A stretch of 47,757 nucleotides of DNA, from the NCBI GenBank assembly GCA_016788705.1, contig JAEUSQ010000046.1, positions 1-47,757 of the forward strand, in the 5' to 3' direction. Below, piece after piece: positions 4,961 to 23,748 of this stretch (position 1 is its first letter; every line of letters starts with the position of its first letter). This stretch comes from Bacteroidetes Order II. bacterium (lineage in GTDB: Bacteria; Bacteroidota; Rhodothermia; Rhodothermales; UBA2364). Below the pieces are notes generated by a model. The model was not told the origin of the DNA, ran no database searches, and saw nothing but the letters and a program-made list of their open reading frames with translations. The position numbers were made by a program, and so were the translations under genes.

Positions 4961-4987
4961 TCAATTTCTATTCTTATACCTGCATTT

Positions 4988-6331: not shown

Positions 6332-6347
6332 TACCAACTGGCTTTTG

Positions 6348-6390
6348 AAAAAATCACCGGTATCATAGATTCGGTGATTTTTTCTTTTCG
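6348..6390 (+). terminator. terminator of the accB-accC operon
   Basis: Perfect 12-bp stem AAAAAATCACCG (6348-6359) with CGGTGATTTTTT (6372-6383), a 12-base loop, then CTTTT. It lies directly downstream of the accC stop. Confidence 0.88.
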
Positions 6391-6530
6391 GAAATTAGGT
6401 TAACCTATGAGGTGGCTATATTTAGACCAAGGTTCACCAAGGCGCAAGGTTTTTTTTGAACACAGACTTCGGGAAGGGCACAACATGCCAAAAAGGTTGG
6501 GTCAGGTGGCGAAATTAGCATCAAAAATAC

Positions 6531-8099
6531 ATGCATCAAAAAATTGTTATTCTGGATTTTGGCTCACAGTTCACACAACTGATTGCACGACGCATCCGTG
6601 AATTGGGGGTTTATTGCGAGATTCACCCCTGTACAAAGCCTGTACACGAAGTAGAAGCCCTGCAAGCATCCGGTCTTGTGCTATCGGGCGGTCCCAATTC
6701 AATTTATGATGCCGGAGCCCCGCAGTTGGACCCCGCATTCTTGGACTTATACCGCTCGGATGGTAGCCTAATGCCCATACTTGGAATTTGCTATGGACTT
6801 CAAGCCATTGCCCATCTTCAGGGCGGGATCGTAGAACGGGCCTCTAAACGAGAGTTTGGCAGGGCACACCTGAATGCCGTTTATGGCGAACGCCTCTTTG
6901 CTGATATGCCCGAAAACGCCACTGTTTGGATGAGCCATGGTGATCATCTGACGGCACTGCCTGATGGATTTCGGGGCATCGCACACACCGAAAATGCACC
7001 GATTGCCGCAGTACGGTCGGATACAAAACCTATCTGGGGCGTTCAATTTCATCCTGAAGTGGCCCATACACCCGAAGGTAAAACCCTTTTCCGGAATTTT
7101 GTACTGGATATTTGTGGTTGTCTAGGGGATTGGACGGCGTCTTCGTTTGTTGAGGAGAAGATTGCCGAAATTCGGAAACAAGTAGGCGACCAACACGTGA
7201 TTTTGGGCTTATCCGGTGGCGTAGATTCATCGGTGGCGGCGGTCCTACTGCATCAAGCATTAGGAGACCAGCTTACTTGTATTTTCATCAATAACGGTCT
7301 CCTGCGTAAAGGGGAGTTTTCGCAGGTTCAAGAAACTTTCCGCGATCATTTCCACATTCGGCTGAAAGCCGTTGATGCTTCCAATCGGTTTCTGAACGAG
7401 TTGGCAGGAGTTACAGACCCCGAAGCCAAACGCAAAATCATCGGACGGGTTTTCATCGAGGCTTTTGAGCAGGTGACCCATGAAATCTCGGATGAATTGG
7501 GGTTAAAGCCTGCATTCTTGGCACAAGGAACCCTGTATCCAGATGTCATAGAGAGTGTCTCGTTCAAAGGCCCCTCTGTCACCATTAAGTCTCACCACAA
7601 TGTTGGAGGACTTCCTAAAAACCTTCCGTTTCAACTCATAGAACCTTTTCGCGAACTCTTTAAAGATGAAGTCCGCGCAGTTGGCCGTTTTATGAATGTT
7701 CCTGAAACCATTGTGGATCGTCACCCCTTCCCTGGTCCGGGACTGGCGATCCGCATTATTGGTGAAATCACACCCGAACGTTTGGCGTTGTTAAAAGAAG
7801 CCGATGCCATATTTATCGAAGAACTCAAGCAGAAAAAATACTATCTTGAAACTTGGCAGGCGTTTGTGGTGTTACTTCCCGTACAATCTGTGGGGGTAAT
7901 GGGAGATGAGCGGACGTATGAAAACGTTTGTGCCTTACGCGCCGTCACAAGTGTGGATGGAATGACCGCAGACTGGGCCCATTTGCCACATGACTTTTTG
8001 GCACATGTTTCTAATCGTATTATCAATGAAGTTCGTGGAATAAACCGGGTTGTGTATGACATTAGTTCCAAGCCACCCGCAACCATCGAATGGGAATAG
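6531..8099 (+). CDS. guaA: GMP synthase (glutamine-hydrolysing)
   Basis: Amidates XMP to GMP with glutamine and ATP, the last step of guanine nucleotide synthesis. The 522 residues carry all parts of the bifunctional enzyme: a class I amidotransferase domain with nucleophile Cys87 in GICYGLQ and the His-Glu pair in VQFHPEV (174 and 176); an ATP-pyrophosphatase domain with P-loop LSGGVDSS (about 227-234); and the C-terminal dimerisation domain with [15 protein letters not shown], ending PPATIEWE. The ATG at 6531 gives the family N-terminus [16 protein letters not shown]. The envelope genes that follow begin only 10 bases after its stop. I saw no purine riboswitch in the 199-base leader. Confidence 0.97.
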
Positions 8100-8109
8100 A
8101 ACCAAAAAA

Positions 8110-9525
8110 ATGATTGAAGCTATGAAACGTATTTTTCTCTTTCTCCTTTTGCTCTTGCCCGCGACAAGTGCGTCCGCACAGGCCGTTCCTAAAAACGAAG
8201 TGGCGGAATTTACCTTCGAGCGCGGTTTAGAATTGTACCGTCAGCAAGAATACAATTTGGCCTACCAACGTTTTTCGCGGGTTGTTTCGGACTTTCCGCT
8301 GAACCAAAAAACTACCGCAGCCATGTTGATGGGGGCACGGGCCTTGTTTTCGCAAGGGATGTTTAAAGAAAGTATCGAGTTGGCCAACCAACTTTTAAGC
8401 AAATATCCGGATAGCCGCTATGTTTCGGATGCCAGCAGGCTAAAAAGCATGGCATCTGGCCAGAACAATAACCCACAACAGCCCCAAGTGTTTAACCTAG
8501 GCATTGCCCTACCACTTAAAGCAAGTGACACCTATGTACGGGCCTTGTTTAACGGTATCCGAATTGCCGTAGAAGATTACAACAATTCACGTCCACGAAT
8601 TCCAGTTAAAATGGTATTCCGAGACTCCGGCGGAGAACTGGACCCCGCTCAAATTGCCATGACATCGCTCATCCGAGATGGTAAAGTTGGTGCGGTCATC
8701 GGGCCATTGTTTAGTCAAGAGGCACTTTCGGCTGCCGAAGTTGCAGACCGTTCACAAGTAGTAATGGTCGCGCCTGTTGCAACCGAAAGTCGGGTTTCGG
8801 ACGGAAAGCGCTATGTCTTCCAAGCCAGTTCGACCTTCACCATGCGTGGTCAACTGATGGCACGGTACGCCGTTTCCGATCTGGGATACAAAAATGTGGG
8901 GGTTGCTTATGAGAGCAATTCACAAAATGAACAAACCGTACAATCTTTCACTGCCGAAGTGAGGAGGTTGGGCGGAACGGTGGTCTTTAGCAAGGCATTG
9001 ACCTCGGCCAGTGAATGGGCAAAATTCGGACGTTCCATTCCGGCAACCCAACTCGCGCAAGCCCAAGCTATCTATATGCCCATTAATGGCCGAGACGCGG
9101 CCCGAAATATCGAAAGTGCCCTTACATCGTTAGATCAGGTGCGCGCTACCAATGTGGTCTTGGGAAATTCCGATTGGCATGACTTGTCTAATGCCGATTT
9201 GGCAAGCCGTTATCGGGCAGCTTATACGAGCGATTTTTGGGTAAGCCCCACCGACCCGCGAGTTCAGGAATTTGCACGAAAATATCAATCCGTAACAGGT
9301 CAAATGCCAGATGAGTTGGGACTTTCTCATGCTGGTTACGATTTGACCAATTTTTTAATCACGCAAATTCGCAATACACCAGAAGGCAGTTCGCTCCAGC
9401 AACAAATCAGGACAGCCATACCGTTCGATGGACTGGGGCGCCGCTATGATTTCCGAAATGGCAATCAAAACCAAGCCGTTTTCTACCTCCGTTACCGCAA
9501 TGGTCTGATTACCTTAGACCGTTAA
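8110..9525 (+). CDS. exported TPR plus periplasmic-binding-fold protein (LpoA/LppC-like architecture)
   Basis: A secreted protein of about 471 residues (467 if the ATG at 8122 is used). A signal peptide ending ATSASAQA is followed by a TPR-like section (about 30-120, with FERGLELYRQQEYNLAYQRF and FKESIELANQLLSKYPDS). A type I periplasmic ligand-binding fold fills the rest: FNLGIALPLK, VGAVIGPLFSQE, VVMVAPVAT, a NVGVAYESNSQNEQT-type segment and DELGLSHAGYDLTNF. This is the domain order of LpoA/LppC, the outer-membrane activator of penicillin-binding protein 1A. It is also compatible with a branched-chain amino acid receptor fused to TPRs. Unlike LpoA it lacks a lipobox. Its place between guaA and bamD favours an envelope role. 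Confidence 0.8.
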   Translation: MIEAMKRIFLFLLLLLPATSASAQAVPKNEVAEFTFERGLELYRQQEYNLAYQRFSRVVSDFPLNQKTTAAMLMGARALFSQGMFKESIELANQLLSKYPDSRYVSDASRLKSMASGQNNNPQQPQVFNLGIALPLKASDTYVRALFNGIRIAVEDYNNSRPRIPVKMVFRDSGGELDPAQIAMTSLIRDGKVGAVIGPLFSQEALSAAEVADRSQVVMVAPVATESRVSDGKRYVFQASSTFTMRGQLMARYAVSDLGYKNVGVAYESNSQNEQTVQSFTAEVRRLGGTVVFSKALTSASEWAKFGRSIPATQLAQAQAIYMPINGRDAARNIESALTSLDQVRATNVVLGNSDWHDLSNADLASRYRAAYTSDFWVSPTDPRVQEFARKYQSVTGQMPDELGLSHAGYDLTNFLITQIRNTPEGSSLQQQIRTAIPFDGLGRRYDFRNGNQNQAVFYLRYRNGLITLDR

Positions 9526-9609
9526 GTTAAAATTACGGGTCGGTGTGCAATATTACAGGTGTTTCAGCGTTCCTGCGGGATCACTTGGCTCAATTTAAAA
9601 CAAAAAATA

Positions 9610-10419
9610 ATGTATCGCTTATTTGGAATAGTATTGCTTATACTGGCCACAGGTATTACAGCTTGTAGTGGTTCTAAGCAAAACAAGCAGAAATACCAGA
9701 CGCCTCAAGAAGCATTTGAAAAAGGGAAAGCGCTCTACGAAAAAAAGCGTTATACCGATGCCATCGAGTTCTTTAAAGGTGTCTTCGACTTTGGCCGTAC
9801 CAATGAATGGGCGGATGATGCCCAATACTATCTCGGCCTGAGCTACATGGGCGGCAAAGATTATATGGTGGCCGAACAAGAACTGATGCGATTTGTCTCG
9901 TTATACCGCTCGGATCCACGCTCCATCGAGGCGGAGTTCCAACGCCTGATTTGCTACTACAAGTTGTCGCCAACCTTTGAATTGGACCAAACCGATACCG
10001 ACCGCGCCTTGACCAATATGAATATTTTCCTGCAACGGTATCCCAATGATGACCGAGTTTCTCAGATCAGTATTATGATCAAAGAATTACGAGAAAAACT
10101 GGGGCAAAAAGCGTATGAAGCAGGAAAAACGTATGAACGACGTGGATACTATCAGGCCGCTGCACATACTTTTGAACAGGTTCTACAAAATTATGCCGAC
10201 ACCTCTTGGGCAGACAATGCCTTGCTGGGTGCCATTCGTTCGTATGTTCTGTATGCCAAAAACAGTGTGGAAAGCAAGCAAGCAGAACGCTTCGATAAAG
10301 CCATTACAACCTACAACCGTCTCGTGGAGTTGTACCCGAAAAGTGAAGTACTAAAAACGGCAGAAGTACTTTATATGGAAGCCACCACCCTTAAATCCGC
10401 GATTAAGCCAAAATCTTGA
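9610..10419 (+). CDS. bamD: outer membrane protein assembly lipoprotein BamD
   Basis: Subunit of the BAM complex that inserts beta-barrel proteins into the outer membrane. The 269-residue lipoprotein has the signal peptide MYRLFGIVLLILATGITAC, lipidated at Cys19, followed by five TPR-like helical pairs. Typical segments are FEKGKALYEKKRYTDAIEFF, DDAQYYLGLSYMGGKDYMVA, YEAGKTYERRGYYQAAA and FDKAITTYNRLVELYPKSE. The ATG at 9610 is chosen over upstream in-frame codons because it begins the lipoprotein signal directly. It follows the LpoA-like gene by 84 bases on the same strand. Confidence 0.88.
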   Translation: MYRLFGIVLLILATGITACSGSKQNKQKYQTPQEAFEKGKALYEKKRYTDAIEFFKGVFDFGRTNEWADDAQYYLGLSYMGGKDYMVAEQELMRFVSLYRSDPRSIEAEFQRLICYYKLSPTFELDQTDTDRALTNMNIFLQRYPNDDRVSQISIMIKELREKLGQKAYEAGKTYERRGYYQAAAHTFEQVLQNYADTSWADNALLGAIRSYVLYAKNSVESKQAERFDKAITTYNRLVELYPKSEVLKTAEVLYMEATTLKSAIKPKS

Positions 10420-10486
10420 CCCACATTTGGATGAACAATTCCCTGTATCGTCTTGGATGCTGCAATCGTTTGACAAGGGGCGTAAA

Positions 10487-11119
10487 ATGGCGTCTATAAG
10501 GCTTCAAGCAGAAGGATTGGAAATGCGGTTTGGACGCAGGTTACTCTTCCGTAACCTCGATATTCAGGCCTCCTCCGGAGAATTTTTGGCGATAACCGGA
10601 CAAAATGGGAGCGGAAAATCCACTTTGGTGCGCATTTTGGCTGGTATTCTTGCACCAACGGCTGGAACGGTTCAGCTGTTGGCCGATGGCATAGAGCTAA
10701 CGGAACGTCCCTTTTTTATCGGTTTGGTTGCACCATATCTAAACTTGTATGAAGGCTTTACCCTTCGTGAAAACATGCGGTTTGTTGCACGGGTACGTGG
10801 GCTTGGTACCACGACTGCAACCGAAGAGGCCCTGATTCAAAAAGTCCAACTCCAAGGACGCGCCGACGAATTGGTGGGGAATTATTCTTCCGGAATGAAG
10901 CAACGGGCACGTTTTGCGCTTGCCTTACTTACCAATCCACCTGTTTTGATGCTTGATGAACCAACCGCAAATTTAGATGATTCGGGCAAAGCCTTTGTAT
11001 GGAATACGGTAGAAGAAGCCAGGGCGTCCGGCAAATTGGTTTTGGTGGCCACCAACGAAGCGGAGGAAGCAGAACGTGCAGAACGTCAAGTGAAGGTGGA
11101 GCGACCAAACATGAGATAA
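10487..11119 (+). CDS. ABC transporter ATP-binding protein, CcmA-like
   Basis: A single nucleotide-binding domain of 210 residues with Walker A GQNGSGKST, signature YSSGMKQR, Walker B VLMLDEPTANLD and a terminal VATNEAEEAE switch region. Size and local sequence (FLAITGQNGSGKSTLVRILAG, a short helical region without a long C-terminal domain) resemble CcmA, the ATPase of the haem/cytochrome c maturation exporter. No ccmB-type membrane partner lies next to it, so the assignment is tentative. The ATG at 10487 is preferred because AAGGGG at 10475-10480 is well spaced before it; a TTG at 10427 and an ATG at 10457 are alternatives. Confidence 0.78.
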   Translation: MASIRLQAEGLEMRFGRRLLFRNLDIQASSGEFLAITGQNGSGKSTLVRILAGILAPTAGTVQLLADGIELTERPFFIGLVAPYLNLYEGFTLRENMRFVARVRGLGTTTATEEALIQKVQLQGRADELVGNYSSGMKQRARFALALLTNPPVLMLDEPTANLDDSGKAFVWNTVEEARASGKLVLVATNEAEEAERAERQVKVERPNMR

Positions 11120-11220
11120 GTTTTTCTGGCCTCGCCTTGCTAACCTCGGCTTCGGAACACTTTATGTGCTGGTTAACCCAATCTCTCCATCCATTTGTAC
11201 ACTCAAAAGACAACACGAAT

Positions 11221-11727
11221 ATGCAATTTAATGCCTTACCACCCGACGCCCAAGCGTGGGTTTATATCGCAGACCGTCCACTTAGTGCATCGGTTCAACA
11301 AGCGGTTCTGGAACAATTAAAAACCTTTTTTTCCACTTGGAAGTCTCATGGCCGTCCGGTTCGAGGGGCAGCACGGTTTTGGGCAGATCGTTTTTTGTGT
11401 GTAGGCGCATTTATAGAAGGTGGTACCATTTCGGGCTGTGGGATAGATGCTTCGGTACATGCCATTGGTGCCGTTCCCGAAGCATTTGGCTTTGCATGGG
11501 AGTCTCCACTCAAGGTGTTTTATCGGGATGCAACGGGTGCTGTCCAATCTGTACCGAGAGCGGTTTTTCGTAAAATGGTACAGGAACAGCATGTTGGTTC
11601 GGAAACCATCGTTTTTAATCCAGGCATTACTGAAGTACAAGCCCTTGAAAATCAATCATTTGAATTGCCCTTAAAAGACGCTTGGCATGCAAGAGTTTTC
11701 CGATTACCTGCTGCAACGTCCGTTTAA
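11221..11727 (+). CDS. conserved Bacteroidota protein often labelled 'ABC transporter ATPase' (no ATPase motifs)
   Basis: A 168-residue soluble protein beginning MQFNALPPDAQAWVYIADRP. Recognisable segments are a FFSTWKSHGRPV-type stretch, RFLCVGAF, the signature GCGIDASVHAIGAV, and a C-terminal DAWHARVFRLP. From memory this matches a widespread Bacteroidota family that databases often call 'ABC transporter ATPase'. It contains no Walker A, Walker B or LSGGQ-like motif, so that name is probably inherited from neighbours such as the CcmA-like ATPase here. Its real function is unknown. The stop overlaps the stop of the convergent gene by four bases (11724-11727). Confidence 0.82.
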   Translation: MQFNALPPDAQAWVYIADRPLSASVQQAVLEQLKTFFSTWKSHGRPVRGAARFWADRFLCVGAFIEGGTISGCGIDASVHAIGAVPEAFGFAWESPLKVFYRDATGAVQSVPRAVFRKMVQEQHVGSETIVFNPGITEVQALENQSFELPLKDAWHARVFRLPAATSV

Positions 11728-12452
11728 AGCGCCATGCTCCATTCGGGAAAAGTATCTTTCCAAACTTCCGACTGCACCATCTCGTGTGGCGGAAGATCGG
11801 TGAGAATGCCAGAGCGATTTATGAGCCAAAAGCGGTTTGCAAACGAAAAGGCCAGATGAAGGTCATGGGTAGTAATTAGCAGGGCTTTTTTTTCCGTCGT
11901 CGCCCACTGATACATCAACCTAAATAATGCTACTTTTCCGGGAAAGTCCAAAAAAGCAGTAGGCTCATCTGCCAAAATAAGGGGCGTTTTTTGTGCCAAT
12001 GCACGCGCAATCATAAGCCTTTGTCGTTCACCATCGCTCAATTCCATCAACAATCGGTCTGCAATATGAGCAGCTCCGGTTTCTTGAATGGCTTCCTCGA
12101 CGCAGTGTTGGTCTTCGTGCGTCAATTGGCCACTCCAGCCAGTAAATGGATACCGTCCCAGGGCTACCAACTCGCGTCCTGTAAGGTAACCCGCCTCCAC
12201 ACGATCGGTCAGGATCAGGGCGAGGTGTTGTGCGCGTTGCTGAGGCGACAAACTGCGAACAGGGACTTGTTTCCACATGAGGCTTCCGGAAAGGGGTGGA
12301 AGCAAGCCTGCCAGTGTTTTTAATAAGGTAGATTTTCCTGCACCATTTGGCCCAATCAAGCAAACCAGTTCTCCCGCTTCAAGCCGTAGGTTTAGTTGCT
12401 TCAGAAGCACGTTCTTCCGATGTCCAATAGCCAAGTTTTCGGTGGAAAGCAT
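11724..12452 (-). CDS. iron-siderophore/cobalamin-type ABC importer, ATP-binding subunit
   Basis: A 242-residue FecE/BtuD/FhuC-family ATPase that powers uptake of a metal chelate or corrinoid across the inner membrane. Walker A GPNGAGKST, Q-loop region LALILTDR, signature LSDGERQR, Walker B LILADEPTAFLD and switch His in LLITTHDLHL are all present. It is the last gene of a three-gene importer, 6 bases after the permease. No outer-membrane TonB-dependent receptor is in the window to reveal the substrate, so B12, siderophore and haem all remain possible. Confidence 0.92.
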   Translation of the reverse strand: MLSTENLAIGHRKNVLLKQLNLRLEAGELVCLIGPNGAGKSTLLKTLAGLLPPLSGSLMWKQVPVRSLSPQQRAQHLALILTDRVEAGYLTGRELVALGRYPFTGWSGQLTHEDQHCVEEAIQETGAAHIADRLLMELSDGERQRLMIARALAQKTPLILADEPTAFLDFPGKVALFRLMYQWATTEKKALLITTHDLHLAFSFANRFWLINRSGILTDLPPHEMVQSEVWKDTFPEWSMAL

Positions 12453-12458
12453 AACGAA

Positions 12459-13436
12459 TCAGCTCGTTAAAGTGGTACGTTTAAACAAGACCCAAAGAAT
12501 GACTGGCAAACCCAGCAAAGCCATAAGTGCATTCAGTGGCATAATCTGTCCATTTCCGGGGAGCAACGTTAAGTTAGAAGCGAACAATGCCAACATACTT
12601 CCCCAAACAGCCGCCCCCGGGATTAGCAACCGATGATCGGCGGTCTGAAAATAAAGCCGCGCTATATGAGGCACCGCAATTCCCAGAAAAGCAATAGGGC
12701 CGCAAAAAACCGTTGTAACACCTGCTAAAACCGATGCAATAACAAGCAAAGAAGTTTGAACCGAACCGACGCTTACTCCCAAACTTTGGGCATACGTGAT
12801 TCCCAGCATCAAAGCATTTAATGGCTTGGCCATCAGCCACGCGACCAATAAACACCCACCCACAATCGGGGCAAACCAAAGTAGATCACTAGGAGACACC
12901 CCGCCAAAACTCCCCATTCCCCAAATCGAAAAAAGTCGGATTTGATCCGCCGGGCTAAAGAAGACCAATAAATTGACCACCGCGCCAATGATATAGCCAA
13001 ACAAAACCCCCAAAATCAACAACGAGGCGGTTCCTCCGGCTCTCTGTGAAGCAAGTAACATGAGGAATAGAGCAAGGCCCGCACCCAAACTTCCGGCCAG
13101 AATATGAGAAAAAGTGGAAACAATACCCGGCCCCGTGAGCAGAACCACAGCAACCCCTAAACTTGCGCCCGATTGAATCCCTAGTTCAAATGGCCCAGCC
13201 AATGGATTTCTGAAGTAGGTTTGCATCAGTAAGCCCGCAACCCCTAAAGCAGCCCCTGTCAACACGCCGGAAAGCGCCCTTGGGAGTCGAATGGCCCAAA
13301 GAATCGCCCGCTGCTGATCCGTAAGTTGATTTGGGTTCCACAAATGTTGCACCGGAATAACTTCACTGCCTGCCAGCAAAGCCCAACCAAACAAACCTAT
13401 ACCCAAAACAGGTAGTACCCAGAAACGGTGACGCAT
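12459..13436 (-). CDS. FecCD/BtuC-family ABC permease
   Basis: A 325-residue integral membrane permease of the FecCD family, predicted to form about ten transmembrane helices as a homodimer. Family marks are RLPRALSGVLTGAALGVAGLLMQ near the N-terminus (the coupling region), NPLAGPFELGIQSGASLG, and GPIAFLGIAVPHIAR near the C-terminus. Its ATG overlaps the TAA of the upstream binding-protein gene by one base (TAATG), a sign of translational coupling. Together with the flanking genes it makes a complete importer. Confidence 0.93.
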   Translation of the reverse strand: MRHRFWVLPVLGIGLFGWALLAGSEVIPVQHLWNPNQLTDQQRAILWAIRLPRALSGVLTGAALGVAGLLMQTYFRNPLAGPFELGIQSGASLGVAVVLLTGPGIVSTFSHILAGSLGAGLALFLMLLASQRAGGTASLLILGVLFGYIIGAVVNLLVFFSPADQIRLFSIWGMGSFGGVSPSDLLWFAPIVGGCLLVAWLMAKPLNALMLGITYAQSLGVSVGSVQTSLLVIASVLAGVTTVFCGPIAFLGIAVPHIARLYFQTADHRLLIPGAAVWGSMLALFASNLTLLPGNGQIMPLNALMALLGLPVILWVLFKRTTLTS

Positions 13437-14566
13437 TATTGCAATCCTTTGAAATACTGGATCCGATAGTCTTTTGCCTGGTCCGGGTAAAAAATAGCCC
13501 GAAGATCCCGAAGAATAACATCTGGTTCTAAGACCGCTGCTTCAAAAAAACGCCCATCATACGAGAAGTAGGCTCCTTTTTGGGCCGAAGGCAACATCGA
13601 GAACCGTCCATCTGTTTGTCTGATGGACGCTTCATTCTCAAAGGGCACAGTCCCAATCCAATGGGTTGCGGTTTTTGTACGCCCCAAGACACCCTCAAAA
13701 TCCAAGGTAAGGGTGGCTGCGGTGTCTTTTATGGCATAGGTTGCACCCGCGTCCCGAATCAGATGGGCCATAAAACTACTTGAACCCGCAATATACCAGT
13801 TACCATTGAAATAACTACCCGTAAAAACAACGGGCTTAGGCCCAGGGGTGGGCATTTTCTGTAAGGTACGATAGCGCTGTTTGAGTCCATCAAAAATCTG
13901 ATTGGCTTCGGCCTCTTTGTTGAAAAACAACGCCATAAACTTAATCCATTCCGTGCGGGCAAGCGGACTGGCCTCGGCAAATTCCCCATTGAGTACTACC
14001 GAGATCGGCAGGGGACGAAGTTTATGATGGAGATCGGTAGGGGCGCCCATTGCATAGCCCATCACCATATCCGGTTTTAAGCCCAATATTTTTTCGGCAT
14101 CCAGTTCTTGGCTTCCCACTTCTGCAATGGATTTTGCTTTCGCCGCAAGAGCGGGCAACGTGATGAATGATTTTCCTGCGTGCCCCACCCATTTTTCCAA
14201 AACACCCAATTGTTGTAATCCTGGAAGTTGCGTAGTAGAGGTGGTCACCAATTTTTGCACCGGAATGGTGATAACAGCATCCGATACGACCTTTGGCGCG
14301 GGCGCGCCACACACCTTGAGTACATAAGTAAACGTTTTAGCAGTTCCCGGCCATGCCCGAATGACGTTCACCAATTTATAATAACGATGATACGATACAG
14401 CAAACCCTGTCGCTTCTTCGGGCCGCGTTTGAACAGGAAAGTAATCTCGGTTGGGATCAAACGGCGCATTACATCCACTTTGATCCGGTATTATCGGTGA
14501 AGAGGAAGGCCGACAACCCAAGAAGGCCATCGGAATGAAGAAGAAAATCCACTTAAAGCAGGACAT
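13436..14566 (-). CDS. iron/B12-type ABC importer substrate-binding lipoprotein
   Basis: A lipoprotein of about 376 residues with signal peptide ending AFLGC. It has the FecB/BtuF-type bilobal fold: GVLEKWVGHAGKSF, KILGLKPDMVMGYAMG in the first lobe, a long rigid helix region (TEWIKFMALFFNKEAEANQIFDGL) and a second lobe with PVVFTGSYFNGNWYIAGSSSFMAHLIRDAG. The N-terminal segment before the first lobe is longer than in BtuF. The ATG at 14566 is preferred over a GTG three codons upstream. It is the first gene of the importer operon. The leader shows no B12-box-like motif, so I see no cobalamin riboswitch. Confidence 0.88.
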   Translation of the reverse strand: MSCFKWIFFFIPMAFLGCRPSSSPIIPDQSGCNAPFDPNRDYFPVQTRPEEATGFAVSYHRYYKLVNVIRAWPGTAKTFTYVLKVCGAPAPKVVSDAVITIPVQKLVTTSTTQLPGLQQLGVLEKWVGHAGKSFITLPALAAKAKSIAEVGSQELDAEKILGLKPDMVMGYAMGAPTDLHHKLRPLPISVVLNGEFAEASPLARTEWIKFMALFFNKEAEANQIFDGLKQRYRTLQKMPTPGPKPVVFTGSYFNGNWYIAGSSSFMAHLIRDAGATYAIKDTAATLTLDFEGVLGRTKTATHWIGTVPFENEASIRQTDGRFSMLPSAQKGAYFSYDGRFFEAAVLEPDVILRDLRAIFYPDQAKDYRIQYFKGLQ

Positions 14567-14687
14567 ATCGTGCACGTAAAGAGGGTATATAGACAGTCTT
14601 GTGGTACAAAGGCTTGTGCTTTAGAGAACAACCTGAAAGAAGATAGTCCCTCTTGATGTTAAATTGGCGTAATTAACCGCGAAAATA

Positions 14688-14724
14688 TTTGTTTGGGCGT
14701 TAAAGAGGATTGAATGTATCTTTG
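14688..14724 (+). promoter_or_regulatory. candidate Bacteroidota-type promoter of the antiporter gene
   Basis: The sequence TATCTTTG at 14717-14724 matches the TAnnTTTG -7 element of Bacteroidota housekeeping sigma factor promoters, and two overlapping TTTG copies at 14688-14695 sit 21-25 bases upstream, roughly where the -33 TTTG is expected. It lies 77 bases before the antiporter ATG. Confidence 0.5.
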
Positions 14725-14801
14725 GGCCTGCGCCAATCACCTATTTTCCGCTTCACACCCTTTTTACAAGGGTCTTATATGGTGATAAATAGACAAAGCC
14801 C

Positions 14802-16760
14802 ATGCACTTTCCGATTCTTAAAGATTTACTGCTCATTTTATTGTTTGCAGCCGGAGTGGTTTATGCCTTACAGCGGCTCAAAATACCGGCCATTCTAGGA
14901 TTTATCCTAACAGGAATACTCATAGGCCCCTTTGGACTGGGGCTCATCTCAGCCATTCACGAGATCGAGGTTATTGCAGAGATCGGGATTATCCTCTTGT
15001 TATTTGTGATCGGGATCGAACTCTCCCTCAAACAGCTTTTTTCTATTCGGCGAACCGTTTTTCTGGGAGGGGTGGTTCAGGTGGGGCTAAGCATTGGTTT
15101 AGTAGGTTTGATCACATGGCTTGGCGGTTTGGCTTGGCAAGAAGCCGTTTTTATGGGGTTTTTGGTTTCCCTTTCTAGTACTGCTATTGTTCTGAAACTC
15201 CTCCAAGACAAAAATGAAATAGCAGCACCACATGGCCGAAATGCACTTGGAATTTTGATCTTCCAAGACATTATTGTGGTGCCTATGATGCTCGTTGTTC
15301 CGATTATGGCTGGAGAAACGGACTCTGTAACCATTTCGGTACTGTTGCTCTTTGCGAAAACCATTGCGGTTTTGGTTTTCACGTATTTATTATCGCGGTT
15401 TGTCTTACCCGTTGTTTTTTATCAAGTTGCCAAAACAGGAAACAAAGAGTTATTCCTGATCACCACCTTTTTACTGTGTTTCTCTTTGGCTTTTCTGACG
15501 GCCGAAGCGGGCCTTTCAATGGCGCTGGGAGCCTTTATTGCTGGACTGCTCATTTCCGAGTCCGATTACAACCATCAAGCCGTCGGGACTATTCTCCCTT
15601 TTCGTGAATTGTTCACCAGTTTCTTTTTTGTTTCCGTTGGAATGCTGTTGGACTTTGGATTTTTCTTGGCACATGTCTGGATTATTGTCGGACTCACCCT
15701 TGCAGTGGCCATCCTCAAAGTGCTTGTCGTTTACATTGCCGTTGCCCTCCTAAAATACCCCACCCGAACCACCCTTCTAACGGGTCTTTCGCTTTTCCAA
15801 ATCGGAGAATTTTCCCTCATTTTATCCGACATAGGAATAGAATATGGGCTGCTTACGCCCGATCTAAACCAATATTTCCTTTCCGTTTCTATTCTAACCA
15901 TGCTACTCACTCCCTTTGCACTGCTATATGCAGACAAATGGACGCGAACCTTCGTAAGAAATCATCACGAAGAAAAACACACATCAAACGTACAGCATAC
16001 CGATACCTTAAAAAATCATTTGGTTATTATTGGCTACGGACTCAATGGCTCTAATGTGGCCAAAGCAGCAGATTACGCCCATATTCCTTATCATATTCTT
16101 GAACTAAATCCAGAAACCGTGAAACGTGAAAAAGCAAAAGGCTTGCCGATTCACTACGGCGATGCGATGAAAGACGCAGTATTGGAAACAGTAGGTATCA
16201 ACAATGCACGGGTGGTGGTAGTCGCCATTTCGGATCCACAGGCCACCAAAACCATTGTGGCCAATATCCGGCAGCACACACAATCGGCCCAGATTGTGGT
16301 TCGAACCCGATATACCTCTGAAATTCCGGATTTACTGGCCATTGGCGCAGACGAGGTAATCCCGGAAGAATTTGAAACTTCCATCGAAATATTTACTAGG
16401 GTAATGCACAGCTTTATGGTTCCTTTAGATGAAGTGGATACCTTTGTTGAAAAGGTACGATCCGACAATTACCGTGCTTTTAGACAACCCGTACAACGAG
16501 GAGAACGATGGGCGGCGTCTCCTATCCCCGAACTACGTATTTCCTGCGTGCGTGTTCTTGGGGATAGCAACGACGTCATCGGTAAAACCATTGCCGAAGC
16601 ACAAATCCGACAAAAATATGGAATCACCATTCTGGCCCTTCAGCGCAATGGTGTCTTCATGGAAATCCACGCTCCCGATATCCAGATCAGGCACCAAGAC
16701 ACCTTATACCTGAGTGGTTCGGGACAAAATATTGAACAGTTTTACCGCTTGGTTGGTTGA
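14802..16760 (+). CDS. CPA2-family monovalent cation/proton antiporter with RCK domains (KefB/YbaL-like)
   Basis: A 652-residue membrane protein, predicted to exchange K+ or Na+ for protons across the inner membrane. Residues 1 to about 385 form roughly 12-13 membrane helices with family segments ILGFILTGILIGPFGLG, FVIGIELSL and AGLSMALGAFIAGLLISES. A cytoplasmic RCK/TrkA-N nucleotide-binding domain follows (LVIIGYGLNGSNVAKAAD, with a later acidic HYGDA), then a TrkA-C domain (LRISCVRVLGDSNDVIGKTI...). Such domains sense nucleotides and gate transport. The last base of its TGA is the first base of the next ATG (TGATG at 16758-16762), so translation of the downstream channel gene is coupled to it. 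Confidence 0.93.
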   Translation: MHFPILKDLLLILLFAAGVVYALQRLKIPAILGFILTGILIGPFGLGLISAIHEIEVIAEIGIILLLFVIGIELSLKQLFSIRRTVFLGGVVQVGLSIGLVGLITWLGGLAWQEAVFMGFLVSLSSTAIVLKLLQDKNEIAAPHGRNALGILIFQDIIVVPMMLVVPIMAGETDSVTISVLLLFAKTIAVLVFTYLLSRFVLPVVFYQVAKTGNKELFLITTFLLCFSLAFLTAEAGLSMALGAFIAGLLISESDYNHQAVGTILPFRELFTSFFFVSVGMLLDFGFFLAHVWIIVGLTLAVAILKVLVVYIAVALLKYPTRTTLLTGLSLFQIGEFSLILSDIGIEYGLLTPDLNQYFLSVSILTMLLTPFALLYADKWTRTFVRNHHEEKHTSNVQHTDTLKNHLVIIGYGLNGSNVAKAADYAHIPYHILELNPETVKREKAKGLPIHYGDAMKDAVLETVGINNARVVVVAISDPQATKTIVANIRQHTQSAQIVVRTRYTSEIPDLLAIGADEVIPEEFETSIEIFTRVMHSFMVPLDEVDTFVEKVRSDNYRAFRQPVQRGERWAASPIPELRISCVRVLGDSNDVIGKTIAEAQIRQKYGITILALQRNGVFMEIHAPDIQIRHQDTLYLSGSGQNIEQFYRLVG

Positions 16761-17818
16761 TGAACTTCGAAAAAATACATATTCTGTACCGGATATTGGC
16801 GAAAAACCGTTCGCGAAGTCCATTCACACAACGTTCGGATTTTTTAAAATATGCCCTGATTTTTATCCTTCTATTCCTTATCGCTCCAATGGGTTATATG
16901 TGGGTAGAAGGCTGGACTTTTTTTGATGCTTTTTATATGACCTTTATTACCCTTGCCACCATCGGATATGGCGAGGTTCATCCACTACATCCATTAGGTC
17001 GGCTATAGACAATCATCATTGCTTTTTTGGGCATTGGGATGGGTGGATATATTTTCACCCGTTCGGTTGAATACATGCTTGGAAAAACACAATTATTTGA
17101 ACGCCGTATGAAACACGCCATTGAAGCACTCTCGGATCATACCATTATTTGCGGTTTTGGCCGTATCGGCGAACGAGTTGCACAAGGTCTTCAAGAAGCA
17201 GAGCACCCTTTTGTAGTGATCGAATTAAGCGAAGAACGGGCCGCTCGGATGCAAACGGCGGGCTACCTGTATATTCTGGGAAATGCAGAAGAAGAAACCC
17301 TCGACAAAGCGGGGATTCTCCGGGCCAAAAAATTGGTACTTGCATTAGAACAAGACCGCGACAATGCTTTTTTGGCCTTGATGGCCAGAGGCATGAATCC
17401 TAACTTATTTATTTTGGCCCGAACCGATTATGCGACACCACACAACCGTTCCCTGCTCACCCGTGCTGGTGCAGACAAGGTTATCTCTCCATATGAGATT
17501 GGCGCAACCCGTATGACCCAACTGCTCACCCGTCCACTCGTTCATTCGTTTATGGAAGAACTGGATACGTTCCGTAACCTTAAAGTAGAAATGGATGAGA
17601 TGTTGGTGGGCCCTGATGCGCGGTTCAACGGAAAATCACTGGCCATGCTGAATATCCGACAAGCCTTTGGCGCCATTATTATTGCCATCCACGATCCCAT
17701 CAAGAATGAAACCCTCTTTAATCCCGACGCACAAACGATTATTGAAGCCGGACAAACCTTGATTGTTATGGGTGTTGGCAATCAACTACGAGACCTTGCA
17801 CGCGCCTGCCAAAATTAA
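16760..17818 (+). pseudogene. RCK-domain potassium channel interrupted by an in-frame TAG
   Basis: A two-helix K+ channel with regulatory domains, like MthK. The first part (ATG 16760) has a hydrophobic helix, a pore loop with selectivity filter TIGYGE, and HPLHPLGRL. A TAG at 17006-17008 then interrupts the frame, and the very same frame continues TIIIAFLGIGMGGYIF (second pore helix), TrkA-N (HTIICGFGRIGERVAQGL) and TrkA-C, to TAA at 17818. The full-length product would be about 352 residues. No frameshift is needed; only one codon is out of place, aligned with Phe in MthK. It could be a true nonsense mutation, a sequencing error or a readthrough site. The rest of the reading frame shows no decay. 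Coupled by TGATG to the antiporter gene. Confidence 0.85.
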
Positions 17819-17907
17819 CAGTTTTTAACTTGGGAAACACCTTGTTTTTTCTTAGCTTGATTGATTAATTCCAATCACGTATTTCACCACCCAAATTCAT
17901 CTATATA

Positions 17908-18819
17908 ATGCGTGTCAGGCTTTTTATTTTCAGCATCTTACTGGCAAGCCTTTCTTGGGTCGTTGCCCAACAATCCGGCGTATTTGATCAACGCGCCTTG
18001 GCCAAAGTTTACCAAACCAAAGCCCCAAGTTTGGACACCCTTCCCGAAGTGACCTATTCTTATATCCAGGCCACTTCAGCCGAAGCATTCTGGCAATCGG
18101 TAGGAAAGGAACACAAACCCTTGTTGCAAATGCTAAACCGTGATATCATGGGCCGTATTTCCACATCAGACTCCTTGATTGTGCCTAACCAATTGGGGTT
18201 AGACCATCGCACGTATTCTCCATTTCCTAAATATTATGCTGGTGCAGAGTTGTTGGATAAATTTTTTGTAGTGGATAAAAGCTATCAGCTGTATGCCGCC
18301 TACGAATTTGGGAAATTAGCCCGTTGGGGGGTCGTCAGTACGGGTCGTAAAGGTGCAAAAGCCATTTGGACGCCTTCGGGGCGCTTTAACTTCAATTGGC
18401 GACAAGATTTTCGGATTTCGAGTGACAGCCCACCTGGGCAGGAATGGCGCCTGAATTGGGTATCTAACTTTTATTTAGAGCGTGGAATTCATACCCACCA
18501 ATATGCCATTCCGGTTGTTGGGGCAGCGAGTCATGGTTGTGTAAGAATGATTGATGCCGATGCAAAATGGGTGTATGAGTGGCATCGTGGATGGGTGATG
18601 AAAAACAAACAACTCTTAGAACAAGGAAATATGGTGATCGTTCAAGGAGAAGATCTGCCACGAGCCAAAAAACTATTTGTAAAAGAAAAAACAGGTCCCC
18701 ATCTCAAAATGATTTCCCTTCCACCGGATCCTTGGACGGTAGAGGCAGGAAGTCCTCAACAAAAGATGTTTGACCGTCGTAGAGAGCGCCACCAAAGCGC
18801 AACAGAGGCCAGCCGCTGA
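17908..18819 (+). CDS. secreted L,D-transpeptidase (YkuD), first of three tandem paralogues
   Basis: Predicted periplasmic enzyme that cross-links peptidoglycan between diaminopimelate residues or attaches proteins to it. The 303 residues begin with a signal peptide (about 1-20, ending WVVA). The YkuD domain covers about 118-245, with GIHTHQYAIPVVGAASHGC and VRM; the catalytic Cys is residue 211 and the conserved His residues are present. The C-terminus has the array's shared P-x-P...AG-x-x-QQ-x-x-FD element. Compared with the next two copies it lacks the Cys-pair insertion after the active site and the long basic tail. It is followed by the second copy after 55 bases on the same strand. Confidence 0.9.
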   Translation: MRVRLFIFSILLASLSWVVAQQSGVFDQRALAKVYQTKAPSLDTLPEVTYSYIQATSAEAFWQSVGKEHKPLLQMLNRDIMGRISTSDSLIVPNQLGLDHRTYSPFPKYYAGAELLDKFFVVDKSYQLYAAYEFGKLARWGVVSTGRKGAKAIWTPSGRFNFNWRQDFRISSDSPPGQEWRLNWVSNFYLERGIHTHQYAIPVVGAASHGCVRMIDADAKWVYEWHRGWVMKNKQLLEQGNMVIVQGEDLPRAKKLFVKEKTGPHLKMISLPPDPWTVEAGSPQQKMFDRRRERHQSATEASR

Positions 18820-18874
18820 TCAGAAACCGAATAGTACGACTACCACCACCCGTAAATACAGGAGCCGATTCTCC

Positions 18875-19990
18875 ATGAAAAAACTTTTTTTACTCTTCCC
18901 CTTATGGCTAAGTTTGGTTGTTCAGGCACAGCCTACCAAACCATCTACGACGCCCCCTGCCGAAGAGCCGCCTAAATCGTTGGACCATTTCAATCAGGAA
19001 GCACTACGTGCCATCCAAGACAACCAGATTGGAAATCCGGACGAAATTCCACAAGTGTTTTATGACTATTATGTGGTGAAGGAAGAATCTCGACTGCGGG
19101 CCCGCCTAAACCTGTATGAATATATGGGCATTAACAAAGGTGACACCCAAAGCCGAGAAGGTCAGGTATTGATTCAACTAATCAACCGAAATCTTTTGGA
19201 AGACCTCCGCCCTGGCGATACCCTTGTGGTCCCCACCCAATTGGGACTTGATTTGCGGGCCTATTCTCCCTTCCCTCGGTATTATCAGGCAGCAAAGGAA
19301 CATAATAAGATTGTCATCTTAGACAAAGAAATCCAAGCATTTGCCGCCTATGAAGATGGCGTGCTCCGACGTTGGGGAATTATCAACACTGGAACCGATG
19401 CCTCTCAAACTCCTGAAGGACGGTTTAACGTAAACTGGAAAGTAGAAAACCGCATTTCCTCGCTCAGCCCCGGTGTGTTAAAACCAAAAGAATCTGATGA
19501 AATGTGGGATATGACGTGGGTGATGAATATTCATGAGAAGCGCGGCATCCATATGCACCAATACGCCATGCCCACAGGAGGCCCTGCCAGTCATGGATGT
19601 GTTCGCATGAATGATGCCGATGCCGAATGGCTGTTTAACTGGGTGGATGTATGGGAAACCTCGAAGCCCAATGCCGAAGAATGTACGGGATCGAAAGATT
19701 GCAAAATTACCAAACAAGGCACCATGGTGCTGGTACTTGGCCCAGACCCCAAGGGCAAAGCACAACCGTTTGTATATAAAAATCGTTATCCAATTCTCAA
19801 AATCATTGACTTGCCTACGGATCCTTATAGCATTCCTGCAGGGACCGACCAGCAGAAGATTTTTGATCGAATTAGGCTTGGGAAAGGGACAACAGCCAAC
19901 CGGGGCGTAGCAAGCCCTATGCCCAAAACCACACAGGTGAAACCACGAACCACAACCAAGCCAAAAAACAACCAAGCCAAACGGCGGTAA
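18875..19990 (+). CDS. secreted L,D-transpeptidase (YkuD), second of three tandem paralogues
   Basis: A 371-residue secreted YkuD enzyme. The ATG at 18875 starts MKKLFLLFPLWLSLVVQAQ, preceded by AGGAG at 18860-18864; the frame stays open to 18770, but that extension overlaps the first copy and would bury the signal peptide. A Thr/Pro-rich linker, then a LysM-like segment (about 68-122) and the catalytic domain with GGPASHGCVRM (Cys242) follow. After the active site there is a short Cys-pair insertion (EECTGSKDCKITKQG) that is absent from the first copy and could form a disulfide. The C-terminus is a basic Thr/Lys/Pro-rich tail, perhaps for contact with the cell wall or an acidic partner. Confidence 0.9.
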   Translation: MKKLFLLFPLWLSLVVQAQPTKPSTTPPAEEPPKSLDHFNQEALRAIQDNQIGNPDEIPQVFYDYYVVKEESRLRARLNLYEYMGINKGDTQSREGQVLIQLINRNLLEDLRPGDTLVVPTQLGLDLRAYSPFPRYYQAAKEHNKIVILDKEIQAFAAYEDGVLRRWGIINTGTDASQTPEGRFNVNWKVENRISSLSPGVLKPKESDEMWDMTWVMNIHEKRGIHMHQYAMPTGGPASHGCVRMNDADAEWLFNWVDVWETSKPNAEECTGSKDCKITKQGTMVLVLGPDPKGKAQPFVYKNRYPILKIIDLPTDPYSIPAGTDQQKIFDRIRLGKGTTANRGVASPMPKTTQVKPRTTTKPKNNQAKRR

Positions 19991-20006
19991 TGCTGATCTG
20001 TCTGCT

Positions 20007-20047
20007 AAAAACCTGTTCGCGGAACTTCGAGAGCAGGTTTTTTGTTT
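20007..20047 (+). terminator. terminator after the second L,D-transpeptidase gene
   Basis: Stem AAAAACCTG (20007-20015) with CAGGTTTTT (20034-20042), extended by three inner pairs (one of them T-G), then a T-rich tail. It suggests that the third paralogue is transcribed from its own promoter. Confidence 0.7.
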
Positions 20048-20089
20048 GAGGTATTTTCAGCATTTTAGTGCCTATAATCCGGAGTTTTT

Positions 20090-21211
20090 ATGATAAAAAA
20101 ACTGCTTTTTGTTTTTTCTTGTGGTTTAATGGCCTTAGGAACGGTCTATGCACAAGACCCAGAAGTGAATTTGGAAGGACTGGAACGCGCTGGTTTAGAC
20201 TCTCTTTATAGTAGCATGAGAGGCGATGTTCAAAAAATCCCCGATGTCAAATGGGATGTACATCTTGTGACTGAGACTTCCACCTTAATGGCCCGTCTAA
20301 ACCTCTATGAAAAATACGGGATTAACAAAATTGATGTGCCTTCAAGACGAGCACAGGCTTTAATTAAACTTCTCAACCGTAATGACCTGAAAAATTTACA
20401 AAAGGGTGATTCACTATTTATTCCACAGCCCCTGCATTTAGATTTCAGGGCATATGCCCCTTTTGAGCGTCTTTGGCCAGCAGCCGATAAATTAGACCAA
20501 CTCTTATTGGTGGACAAAACCAATCAGGCATTTGCCGCTTATGAGAAAGGAAAACTAACCCGATGGGGTCTGGTAGTAACGGGAAAAGATGAGACCCCCA
20601 CGCCAACGGGTCGGTTTAATGTAAATTGGAAGCAGCCCTCGCGTATCTCCACGCTTAGCCCGGCGCTCCAAAAACCTAAAAAAGGCAAAAAACCTTCCAC
20701 CGAAACGTGGTTCCTGAAATATGTGATGAACATCCACGAATCGCGTGGTATCCACTTCCATCAATATTTTATGCCCACCACAGGCCCGGCAAGCCATGGC
20801 TGTATCCGGTTAGGGGGGCAAGATGCCCGTTGGCTCTATGCCTGGACCCAACCGTGGGAGACAACGGTGGCTTCTGATTCTGCTATGGTTTGTCATGGGA
20901 CACGTTGCAAAGTAAAAAAACAAGGAACGCCCGTTCTGGTGCTGCACAAAGACCCTAAAGGAACGCCTTCGTTTTTCACCCGGATTAAAGGAGAACCTGG
21001 TGTTCGTGTGATGCCCCTCCCGAAAAATCCTTATGCAGTACCTGCAGGAACCCCGCAGCAACAAGCCTTCGATCAACTACGATTGGCCGAGGAAAGGCGC
21101 ATCAGATTAGAGGCACAGAGAGCCGCATCCCCAAAGGCCAAGCCCGCGCCCAAGCCACAGCCACAGCCCAAAACCAAACAAAGTACAGGGAAGCCCAAAG
21201 CCAAATCATAG
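20090..21211 (+). CDS. secreted L,D-transpeptidase (YkuD), third of three tandem paralogues
   Basis: A 373-residue secreted YkuD enzyme with signal peptide ending VYAQ. It follows the plan of the second copy: LysM-like region (about 58-112), catalytic domain with GIHFHQYFMPTTGPASHGC and IRL (Cys238), the Cys-pair insertion (VCHGTRCKVKKQG), the PYAVPAGTPQQQAFDQL element and a long Pro/Lys/Gln tail. SHGCIRL replaces SHGCVRM, and a basic KPKKGKK loop precedes the active site, so the copies have diverged. GGAG at 20081-20084 is a plausible ribosome-binding site. It lies downstream of a terminator and has its own terminator. Confidence 0.9.
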   Translation: MIKKLLFVFSCGLMALGTVYAQDPEVNLEGLERAGLDSLYSSMRGDVQKIPDVKWDVHLVTETSTLMARLNLYEKYGINKIDVPSRRAQALIKLLNRNDLKNLQKGDSLFIPQPLHLDFRAYAPFERLWPAADKLDQLLLVDKTNQAFAAYEKGKLTRWGLVVTGKDETPTPTGRFNVNWKQPSRISTLSPALQKPKKGKKPSTETWFLKYVMNIHESRGIHFHQYFMPTTGPASHGCIRLGGQDARWLYAWTQPWETTVASDSAMVCHGTRCKVKKQGTPVLVLHKDPKGTPSFFTRIKGEPGVRVMPLPKNPYAVPAGTPQQQAFDQLRLAEERRIRLEAQRAASPKAKPAPKPQPQPKTKQSTGKPKAKS

Positions 21212-21251
21212 AGATATTTACCGCTGATACGAAAATACATGTTCTTCATAC

Positions 21252-21279
21252 AAGCCGGGGCTGAACTTCCGGCTTTTTT
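21252..21279 (+). terminator. terminator of the third L,D-transpeptidase gene
   Basis: Stem AAGCCGG (21252-21258) with CCGGCTT (21269-21275), a 10-base loop, and a run of Ts ending at 21279. It sits inside the upstream extension of the next open frame, which helps to place that gene's start downstream. Confidence 0.78.
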
Positions 21280-21322
21280 GTGTAACATGCTGGAAACGCT
21301 TTTTCCACCAAACAACAATGCA

Positions 21323-22093
21323 ATGAATGCCATTAAAGACGCTTTTGACCGCGACGGTTATTACCTTGCCAAAGGAATTTATAGTGCTACTCAGATAAAA
21401 ACGATGGAACAGGAATTTGACCGAATTGTGGATCAAATCCGTTCTGCAAAACAAGAATCGGTCAATGCCCGCTGGGCAGGGAAAGAAATGGAACGCTTAG
21501 ATGGCGGGGATAGTGTGATCTATCACACGCACAACGTTCAGCAATTTTCCGGTCTATGGCTCCGGGCCTTGTTGGAGCCTGCTTTTTCAGAAGTGGTAAC
21601 TGCCATTATGGGCGAAAATGTGGTTCTGCATCATACCAAACTTTTCCAAAAACCTGCCGAGAAAGGCTCTCCCTTTCCAATGCACCAAGATTGGAATTAC
21701 TTCCCTTCGGTCAAAGATACCATGATTGCAGGTATTATTCATGTATCAGAAGCAACGGATGAGATGGGATGTATCCGGGTATATCCCGGCAGCCACAAAT
21801 TAGGCCGTATCCAAAATACCGATGGGCAAAACGAGTCTGAATTACTTGCACAATACCCCATAGAACATGCAACGGTTGTTGAGGCAGAAGCGGGCGATGT
21901 TGTTTTTTTCCATTACTTTACCTTGCATGGATCTATGCCCAACCGTTCGCAGAAGGTACGCAAAACAGTGCTGGCACAACTATATGCCGGAGATGACCAT
22001 ATTGAAGAGGGTATTGCCCACCCCGATGAACATCTGGTACTCAATGGCTGGAACTACCACGCCACGCGCAATTCTGCAGGGCATAAAAAATGA
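21323..22093 (+). CDS. phytanoyl-CoA dioxygenase-family enzyme, first of three tandem copies
   Basis: Predicted Fe(II)/2-oxoglutarate-dependent hydroxylase of 256 residues. The iron triad is visible: His and Asp in PMHQDWNYF, and the distal His in FTLHGSMPNRS, with Arg (KVRKTV) as the likely 2-oxoglutarate ligand. It also has GCIRVYPGSHKLG, the family's usual segment between them. The ATG at 21323 gives the normal start MNAIKDAFDRDGYYLAKG; an ATG at 21287 and the open frame from 21239, which runs over a terminator, are less likely. The substrate is unknown; family members hydroxylate fatty acyl-CoAs, ectoine, phosphonates and many secondary metabolites. It heads a compact three-gene operon. 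Confidence 0.9.
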   Translation: MNAIKDAFDRDGYYLAKGIYSATQIKTMEQEFDRIVDQIRSAKQESVNARWAGKEMERLDGGDSVIYHTHNVQQFSGLWLRALLEPAFSEVVTAIMGENVVLHHTKLFQKPAEKGSPFPMHQDWNYFPSVKDTMIAGIIHVSEATDEMGCIRVYPGSHKLGRIQNTDGQNESELLAQYPIEHATVVEAEAGDVVFFHYFTLHGSMPNRSQKVRKTVLAQLYAGDDHIEEGIAHPDEHLVLNGWNYHATRNSAGHKK

Positions 22094-22115
22094 TCACGTT
22101 TAAACTTATAAATAT

Positions 22116-22973
22116 ATGAATTTAGGCCATTTACCCACCGAACAAGACATTGCGTTTTATCAGGAGAATGGTTACTGGATTTCCCCGATCATTTTCTCGG
22201 ACGAGGAACTCGCCGAAATTCGTGCCCATCATGCACAAGTGATTGAAGGGGTGTACGAGACTGGACGACCACCGCATTACAACAGTCATACGCCGGGTAC
22301 GCCGCTTAACCAGATGATCAAAATTGACAATGCCCACTGGGCTGATGCCTTGATTGCCAAAACGGTCATCCATCCGGTCATTGGCAGAATGGCCGCCCTA
22401 CTTTCTGGCGCAAAAGGAATCCGCTTATGGCATGATCAACTTCTCTATAAACCCTCTCAAAATGTCGGGACGGGAGCCGTTGGATGGCATCAAGACCATC
22501 ATTATTGGCAATGTGCCACCCCTTTTAATATGCTTACAGCTTGGATTGCCCTCGTGGACGTCAACGAGCAAAACGGTTGTATGGAAGTGGTTCCTGGAAG
22601 CCATAATTGGGGATTGATCAGCAATAATGACTTCTTTGAACACGATTTGGACACCCTTCAAAAGCGCATTGAAATAGAAACGGGGAAACCCTTCCAACCA
22701 GTGGCTTGCCCACTTCCGGCGGGCGCAGTCAGTTTCCATCATTGTCGCGTACTACATGGAAGCCGCCCGAATCTGAGTATGGCCCCTCGACTTTCGCTGG
22801 TGGCCCACCTTATGCCCGATGGAACCTGCTACAAGGCCGATACGCCTTCCGATCCGCATATGAATGTCCGGCTTTTATCTGGTCACGACGGAGATCCGTT
22901 TGCTGGACCCTACTTCCCCATGCTATGGCACGAAAGTAGTATGGGGAATCCTTGGGAAGTTTCAATGACTTAA
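22116..22973 (+). CDS. phytanoyl-CoA dioxygenase-family enzyme, second of three tandem copies
   Basis: A 285-residue Fe(II)/2-oxoglutarate oxygenase homologue. Iron ligands are in GWHQDHHYW and RVLHGSRPN, with NGCMEVVPGSHNWG between them and APRLSLVAHL holding a candidate 2-oxoglutarate Arg. It begins LPTEQDIAFYQENGYWISP, a common start in this family. It lies 22 bases after the first copy and 4 bases before the third, so one transcript is likely. Its sequence is well diverged from both neighbours, so the three probably act on different substrates or positions. Confidence 0.9.
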   Translation: MNLGHLPTEQDIAFYQENGYWISPIIFSDEELAEIRAHHAQVIEGVYETGRPPHYNSHTPGTPLNQMIKIDNAHWADALIAKTVIHPVIGRMAALLSGAKGIRLWHDQLLYKPSQNVGTGAVGWHQDHHYWQCATPFNMLTAWIALVDVNEQNGCMEVVPGSHNWGLISNNDFFEHDLDTLQKRIEIETGKPFQPVACPLPAGAVSFHHCRVLHGSRPNLSMAPRLSLVAHLMPDGTCYKADTPSDPHMNVRLLSGHDGDPFAGPYFPMLWHESSMGNPWEVSMT

Positions 22974-22977
22974 CCAA

Positions 22978-23748
22978 ATGAATACGTTAAAACAACCATA
23001 TGAAAATGATGGATACTTGATCTTCCGAAATGCCCTATCAGAGTCACTGGCACAAGAGACCTGCGATCATGTATTTTGGTTATTAGATCGCTATCCGGGT
23101 ACCCGTCCAGAGCAATTGCACCACAACATGTTGGTGAACGATCCATTTATCTGGCGTCTTGCCGGAGACGAACGGCTCTTGGATATTGCCGCTCAATTTA
23201 TCGGTGACGAAGTGGCCTTGTTTGCCGCGCACTACATTGCTAAAGCCCCCAAGACCGGACAAAAGGTGCTCTGGCACCAAGACGGTAGTTATTGGCCATT
23301 AGAACCAATGGAAGTGGTTACGCTCTGGTTGGCGGCGACGCCTTCCACGCCCGAAAATGGATGTATGCGCATTATTCCGGGAACACACCATGATAAGTTG
23401 GTGTCTTGGGAGGAATTGCGCAAACATGACGACGGAGACAATGTACTCGGCTCTGGACTAGACCCCCAATCCATTGACGAATCTCAAGCCATAGACTTGG
23501 TACTGCAACCTGGTGATGTATCGGTACACAATCCTAATATTATCCATGGATCAGAACCCAATCATTCGGATCAATGGCGCATCGGGCTTACCCTCCGGTA
23601 CATCCCTGTGACGACCAAAATCCTGAATCCAGACCACCATGCTATTTTGTTCCGGGGAAAAGCCGTTCGTGGTGTAAATACCTATATACCACGTCCCCGG
23701 TATGATCCAAAAATCCATTTTCCCTTTGCGGGCAGTCATTCTTTTTGA
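22978..23748 (+). CDS. phytanoyl-CoA dioxygenase-family enzyme, third of three tandem copies
   Basis: A 256-residue Fe(II)/2-oxoglutarate oxygenase homologue with iron ligands in LWHQDGSYW and NIIHGSEPNHS, the segment NGCMRIIPGTHHDK, and WRIGLTLRYIP for the 2-oxoglutarate Arg. It resembles the ectoine-hydroxylase/PhyH class in size, but the substrate cannot be told. The ATG at 22978 follows the second copy by 4 bases. The gene converges on the sugar transporter gene, with a 161-base spacer that contains a hairpin. Confidence 0.9.
   Translation: MNTLKQPYENDGYLIFRNALSESLAQETCDHVFWLLDRYPGTRPEQLHHNMLVNDPFIWRLAGDERLLDIAAQFIGDEVALFAAHYIAKAPKTGQKVLWHQDGSYWPLEPMEVVTLWLAATPSTPENGCMRIIPGTHHDKLVSWEELRKHDDGDNVLGSGLDPQSIDESQAIDLVLQPGDVSVHNPNIIHGSEPNHSDQWRIGLTLRYIPVTTKILNPDHHAILFRGKAVRGVNTYIPRPRYDPKIHFPFAGSHSF

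Follow-up and report, generated by a model that had tools for sequence, protein, structure and literature searches.

MthK (PDB 1LNQ and others) is built of two helices and a pore loop followed by the TrkA_N and TrkA_C domains, and the potassium channel gene analyzed here has the same organization. By E-value, its top match among solved structures was given by PDB 4GX0 and others; the 4GX0 entries were deposited as 'TrkA domain protein' and we take them to be GsuK. Two RCK units stand in tandem in GsuK, whereas the present gene has one. In a congener, residues 30-340 of the intact copy of the channel align with residues 22-323 of MthK, nearly end to end. In the window, by comparison with MthK, the frame is cut ahead of the second helix. 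The window designates the whole stretch of DNA that was analyzed (47,757 nucleotides), which is the entire contig C46 of a 4.28 Mb draft assembly (66 contigs, 99.9% complete).

Results

The channel frame and its amber codon

The channel gene and its parts lie in the window as follows.

16760-17818, + strand: frame of an MthK-like, two-helix K+ channel, starting at ATG, ending at TAA and interrupted by a single TAG
16760-17005, + strand: N-terminal remnant of the channel, 82 amino acids (first helix, pore loop, filter TIGYGE), amber-terminated
17006-17008, + strand: in-frame TAG, codon 83
17009-17818, + strand: remaining channel frame (second helix, TrkA_N of RCK type with GFGRIG, TrkA_C), ending at TAA

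The filter TIGYGE begins at residue 67 (window 16958-16975) and GFGRIG, a TrkA_N motif of the GxGxxG type, is found at residue 132. In Pfam searches, the intact channel of the congener G001 (UBA2364, contig DDTM01000013.1) contained Ion_trans_2, TrkA_N and TrkA_C, and Ion_trans_2 scored 61.0 bits in this copy and 64.6 bits in the window copy translated through the stop. The part of the window copy that precedes the stop covers only positions 2-53 of the 79 positions of the Ion_trans_2 profile, and the part that follows it matches TrkA_N (96.8 bits) and TrkA_C (42.9 bits). Both the Pfam and the MthK alignments place the stop after the pore loop and ahead of the second helix. An earlier note on this DNA had proposed that the filter, the second helix, the RCK and the TrkA-C domains share one frame broken only by this TAG, and the Pfam matches and the alignment with relatives confirmed it. 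As 352 codons of the channel could be aligned to those of relatives with no other stop or frameshift, the frame is not a chance one. Where an MthK-type channel has an uninterrupted frame, the window copy carries the TAG at 17006-17008; as the sequence stands, the gene is a broken copy of an MthK-type member and not a working one. It was also the only Ion_trans_2 gene detected in the genome.

Codon 83 in related genomes

The channel of G001 is intact, shares 92% protein identity with that of the window and has TGG (Trp) at the position of the stop codon. At the same codon, the relatives of the same order have Phe (TTC or TTT) in 28 cases out of 28. With TGG in the congener and TAG in the window, the lesion is a single G-to-A change; this comparison had been proposed in the earlier note, and a single-base origin of the TAG, from TGG among other codons, had been anticipated there. 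The simplest history would be a change from Phe to Trp in the genus, followed in the present species by one G-to-A transition from TGG to TAG. It had also been stated that a related strain with a sense codon here would reveal a sequencing error. This rule is too strong, because a real mutation equally predicts a sense codon in the relative.

The filter itself varies within the order. Among the 28 order relatives (L005-L032), 25 have TIGF-x-E, where x is S, Q, A, R, E, K or N, and the second filter glycine is retained only in L018, L019 and L029. The canonical TIGYGE is present in both the window and the congener channel, unlike these 25.

Gene neighbourhood

Three neighbours of the channel are needed to describe the locus.

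11215-11727, + strand: small gene, function unassigned
14802-16760, + strand: CPA2-type (KefC/KefB-like) cation/proton antiporter with TrkA_N and TrkA_C, intact, its stop overlapping the channel start
17908-18819, + strand: first of three L,D-transpeptidase-like genes, named by reading the sequence

The TGATG overlap reported previously is real: the antiporter TGA (16758-16760) shares its A with the channel ATG at 16760. The RCK-type domains attributed to the antiporter were likewise recovered, as TrkA_N and TrkA_C. The interpretation of the two genes as a paired K+ module fared less well. In every one of the 28 order relatives checked, a homologue of the small gene is the immediate upstream neighbour of the channel, so the genes standing between them here are an insertion. 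In the genus (window and G001), the small gene and the channel are separated by btuDCF and the antiporter, and this genus-specific insertion occupies window 11724-16760 (btuDCF-like genes on the - strand, antiporter on the + strand). By coordinates, no close match to the antiporter was found beside the channel among the order relatives. The adjacency having been observed only in this genus, the overlap of antiporter and channel is a genus-level arrangement that followed the insertion, and the evidence for a paired module is weak. The L,D-transpeptidase gene adjoins the channel in nearly all order relatives, a homologue lying downstream of the channel in all of the 28 except two whose loci end early. 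The conserved order small gene, K+ channel, L,D-transpeptidase hints that the channel and the cell wall are connected.

G001 is collinear with window 4637-23718 at 87% DNA identity. The three tandem L,D-transpeptidase-like genes (window 17908-21211) are mutually similar and kept in all three congeners. At the end of the third, TAG at 21209-21211 stands opposite CAG in the congener; this second TAG event was set aside as a trivial shift of the terminus, because the congener terminates one codon further on. An X in the congener accC was also rejected as a lesion, being due to two Ns in the congener assembly. Further downstream, three successive small genes resembling PhyH (phytanoyl-CoA dioxygenase), judged by reading their translations, occupy window 21320-23748. 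In two order relatives, antiporter homologues have in-frame stops as well (1 TAG in G006:C282:2744-3868; 2 TGA and 1 TAG in G033:C15:450856-451992), which shows that transporter genes of this kind are sometimes broken in these assemblies.

A separate loss of the channel in a second congener

In the congener G002, the antiporter (76% identical to that of the window) and the L,D-transpeptidase gene downstream (91% identical) are both intact. Between them, the following feature was found.

L083 10632-10840: channel remnant with 5' and 3' stubs, the middle gone

The 5' stub has about 42 codons and the 3' stub about 20, and the two stand in different frames. The site is internal to a contig of 205 kb; the missing part was therefore deleted, and no contig end is involved. 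The lesions of G002 and of the window are different; the gene has thus been damaged on two occasions within a single genus, in which it appears to be dispensable.

Constraint and age of the stop codon

The window was compared with the congener by simple Nei-Gojobori counts. For the channel, dN/dS was 0.090 over its full length, with 0.177 for the part that precedes the stop and 0.066 for the part that follows; in 16 neighbouring genes it ranged from 0.026 to 0.146, and the antiporter gave 0.060. Where window and congener differ after the stop, the window is nearer to the order relatives at 5 sites and the congener at 7; before the stop, the window is nearer at 4 sites and the congener at 2. 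With the order relatives as standard, the window branch shows no clear excess of unusual residues. These results are in agreement with the absence of further decay noticed earlier: no other stop or frameshift is present, and dN/dS after the stop falls within the range of the neighbours. Such a neighbour-like constraint means that the stop is either very young, or an assembly error or strain polymorphism. The dN observed after the stop is 0.027, and about 0.2 would be expected if this part had been free of selection along the whole window branch. By this rough arithmetic, we infer that the stop should be younger than about one tenth of the time since the species split.

Discussion

The data are best explained by a nonsense allele that is real and of very recent origin, in other words by the early pseudogenisation of an apparently dispensable MthK-like K+ channel, and to this explanation we give a probability of about 0.75. 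A single G-to-A change would have turned the Trp codon TGG into TAG. With the ribosome halting at residue 82, only one helix and the pore loop would be made, which should be unable to form a pore. Two TrkH-type K+ uptake proteins are still encoded in the genome, as is the antiporter. The truncated product is probably non-functional and the allele presumably fixed. As in a recent pseudogene, the window copy has a disabling lesion and a closely related genome has the orthologue intact. Fresh nonsense mutation was one of the options listed in the earlier note, and it is favoured by the TGG of the congener, by the different loss in G002 and by the lack of decay elsewhere in the gene.

Next in probability, though clearly less likely, is that the TAG is a consensus or assembly error, or a minority or strain-level polymorphism, most cells having an intact gene. 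The lesion is one substitution, an ordinary transition, in an otherwise constrained frame; the channel has no second lesion, and the assembly is a draft of 66 contigs. Absence of decay is equally expected from an error or from a gene that still works. Against an error, the window shows no lesion in the other 16 genes of the 19 kb that it has in common with the congener, so errors are not frequent in this region. A real loss in the window also gains credibility from the independent and different loss in G002.

The remaining explanations keep a function for the interrupted gene. According to PMC2573919, MthK comes with soluble RCK domains that are expressed separately, and in the window, in-frame ATGs are found close 3' of the stop, at 17039, 17075 and 17108. 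Translation might restart at one of them and deliver a soluble RCK protein, so that the channel would have become a free regulator, which might act on the antiporter; the RCK part is indeed strongly constrained. However, this constraint dates from before the stop, the genome has no other Ion_trans_2 pore for such a protein to join, and the deletion in G002 removed the RCK part along with the pore. A restart is accordingly improbable, and that the lesion has turned the channel into a pore stub plus a soluble RCK regulator of the neighbouring antiporter, instead of destroying it, is very doubtful.

The stop could also be decoded as sense, whether through a suppressor tRNA, through leaky termination or through A-to-I editing that converts UAG into UIG, which would be read as UGG (Trp). 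Editing would give back exactly the Trp of the congener, and the part 3' of the stop shows no decay. The genome was sampled through its ABC_tran matches, the neighbouring genes and the tRNAs. A search for a tRNA with anticodon CUA, as the earlier note had suggested, found none among the 45 tRNA genes of the genome, and RF1 is present (490.8 bits). TAG serves as an ordinary stop: it terminates guaA in the window species and the congener alike and the third transpeptidase gene of the window, and none of the 35 ABC_tran matches of the genome contains an internal stop. Editing by TadA needs UACG, usually within YTACGAA (PMC12255301); this motif is absent at codon 83, where the site is CTATAGACA, and a Trp produced by editing was rejected. 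With these results, the suppression or readthrough envisaged earlier becomes highly improbable. Finally, reversible on/off switching of the channel gene, also put forward previously, is hardly conceivable: the intact frame around the stop is all that speaks for it, a point substitution is an unusual type of switch, no tandem repeat, inverted repeat, invertible element or paralogous copy was found near the stop as a substrate, and the genome has no second Ion_trans_2 gene as a recombination donor.

The nonsense allele of the channel looks like ordinary gene loss and not like a novel mode of stop-codon decoding. Its value is modest, as the dated, early-caught loss of a K+ channel. The channel has been lost in two of the three species examined in the genus, through two kinds of lesion, and these losses fall in the genus where btuDCF and the antiporter were inserted just upstream of it. 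Readthrough of the allele, or its splitting into two products, would give it greater importance if demonstrated. A literature search on recent single-stop pseudogenes returned nothing. Recent bacterial nonsense pseudogenes likewise have a lone stop in an otherwise intact frame, an intact copy in a sister species and no decay yet; by comparison with them, the present channel is distinctive only in the second, different loss within the genus.
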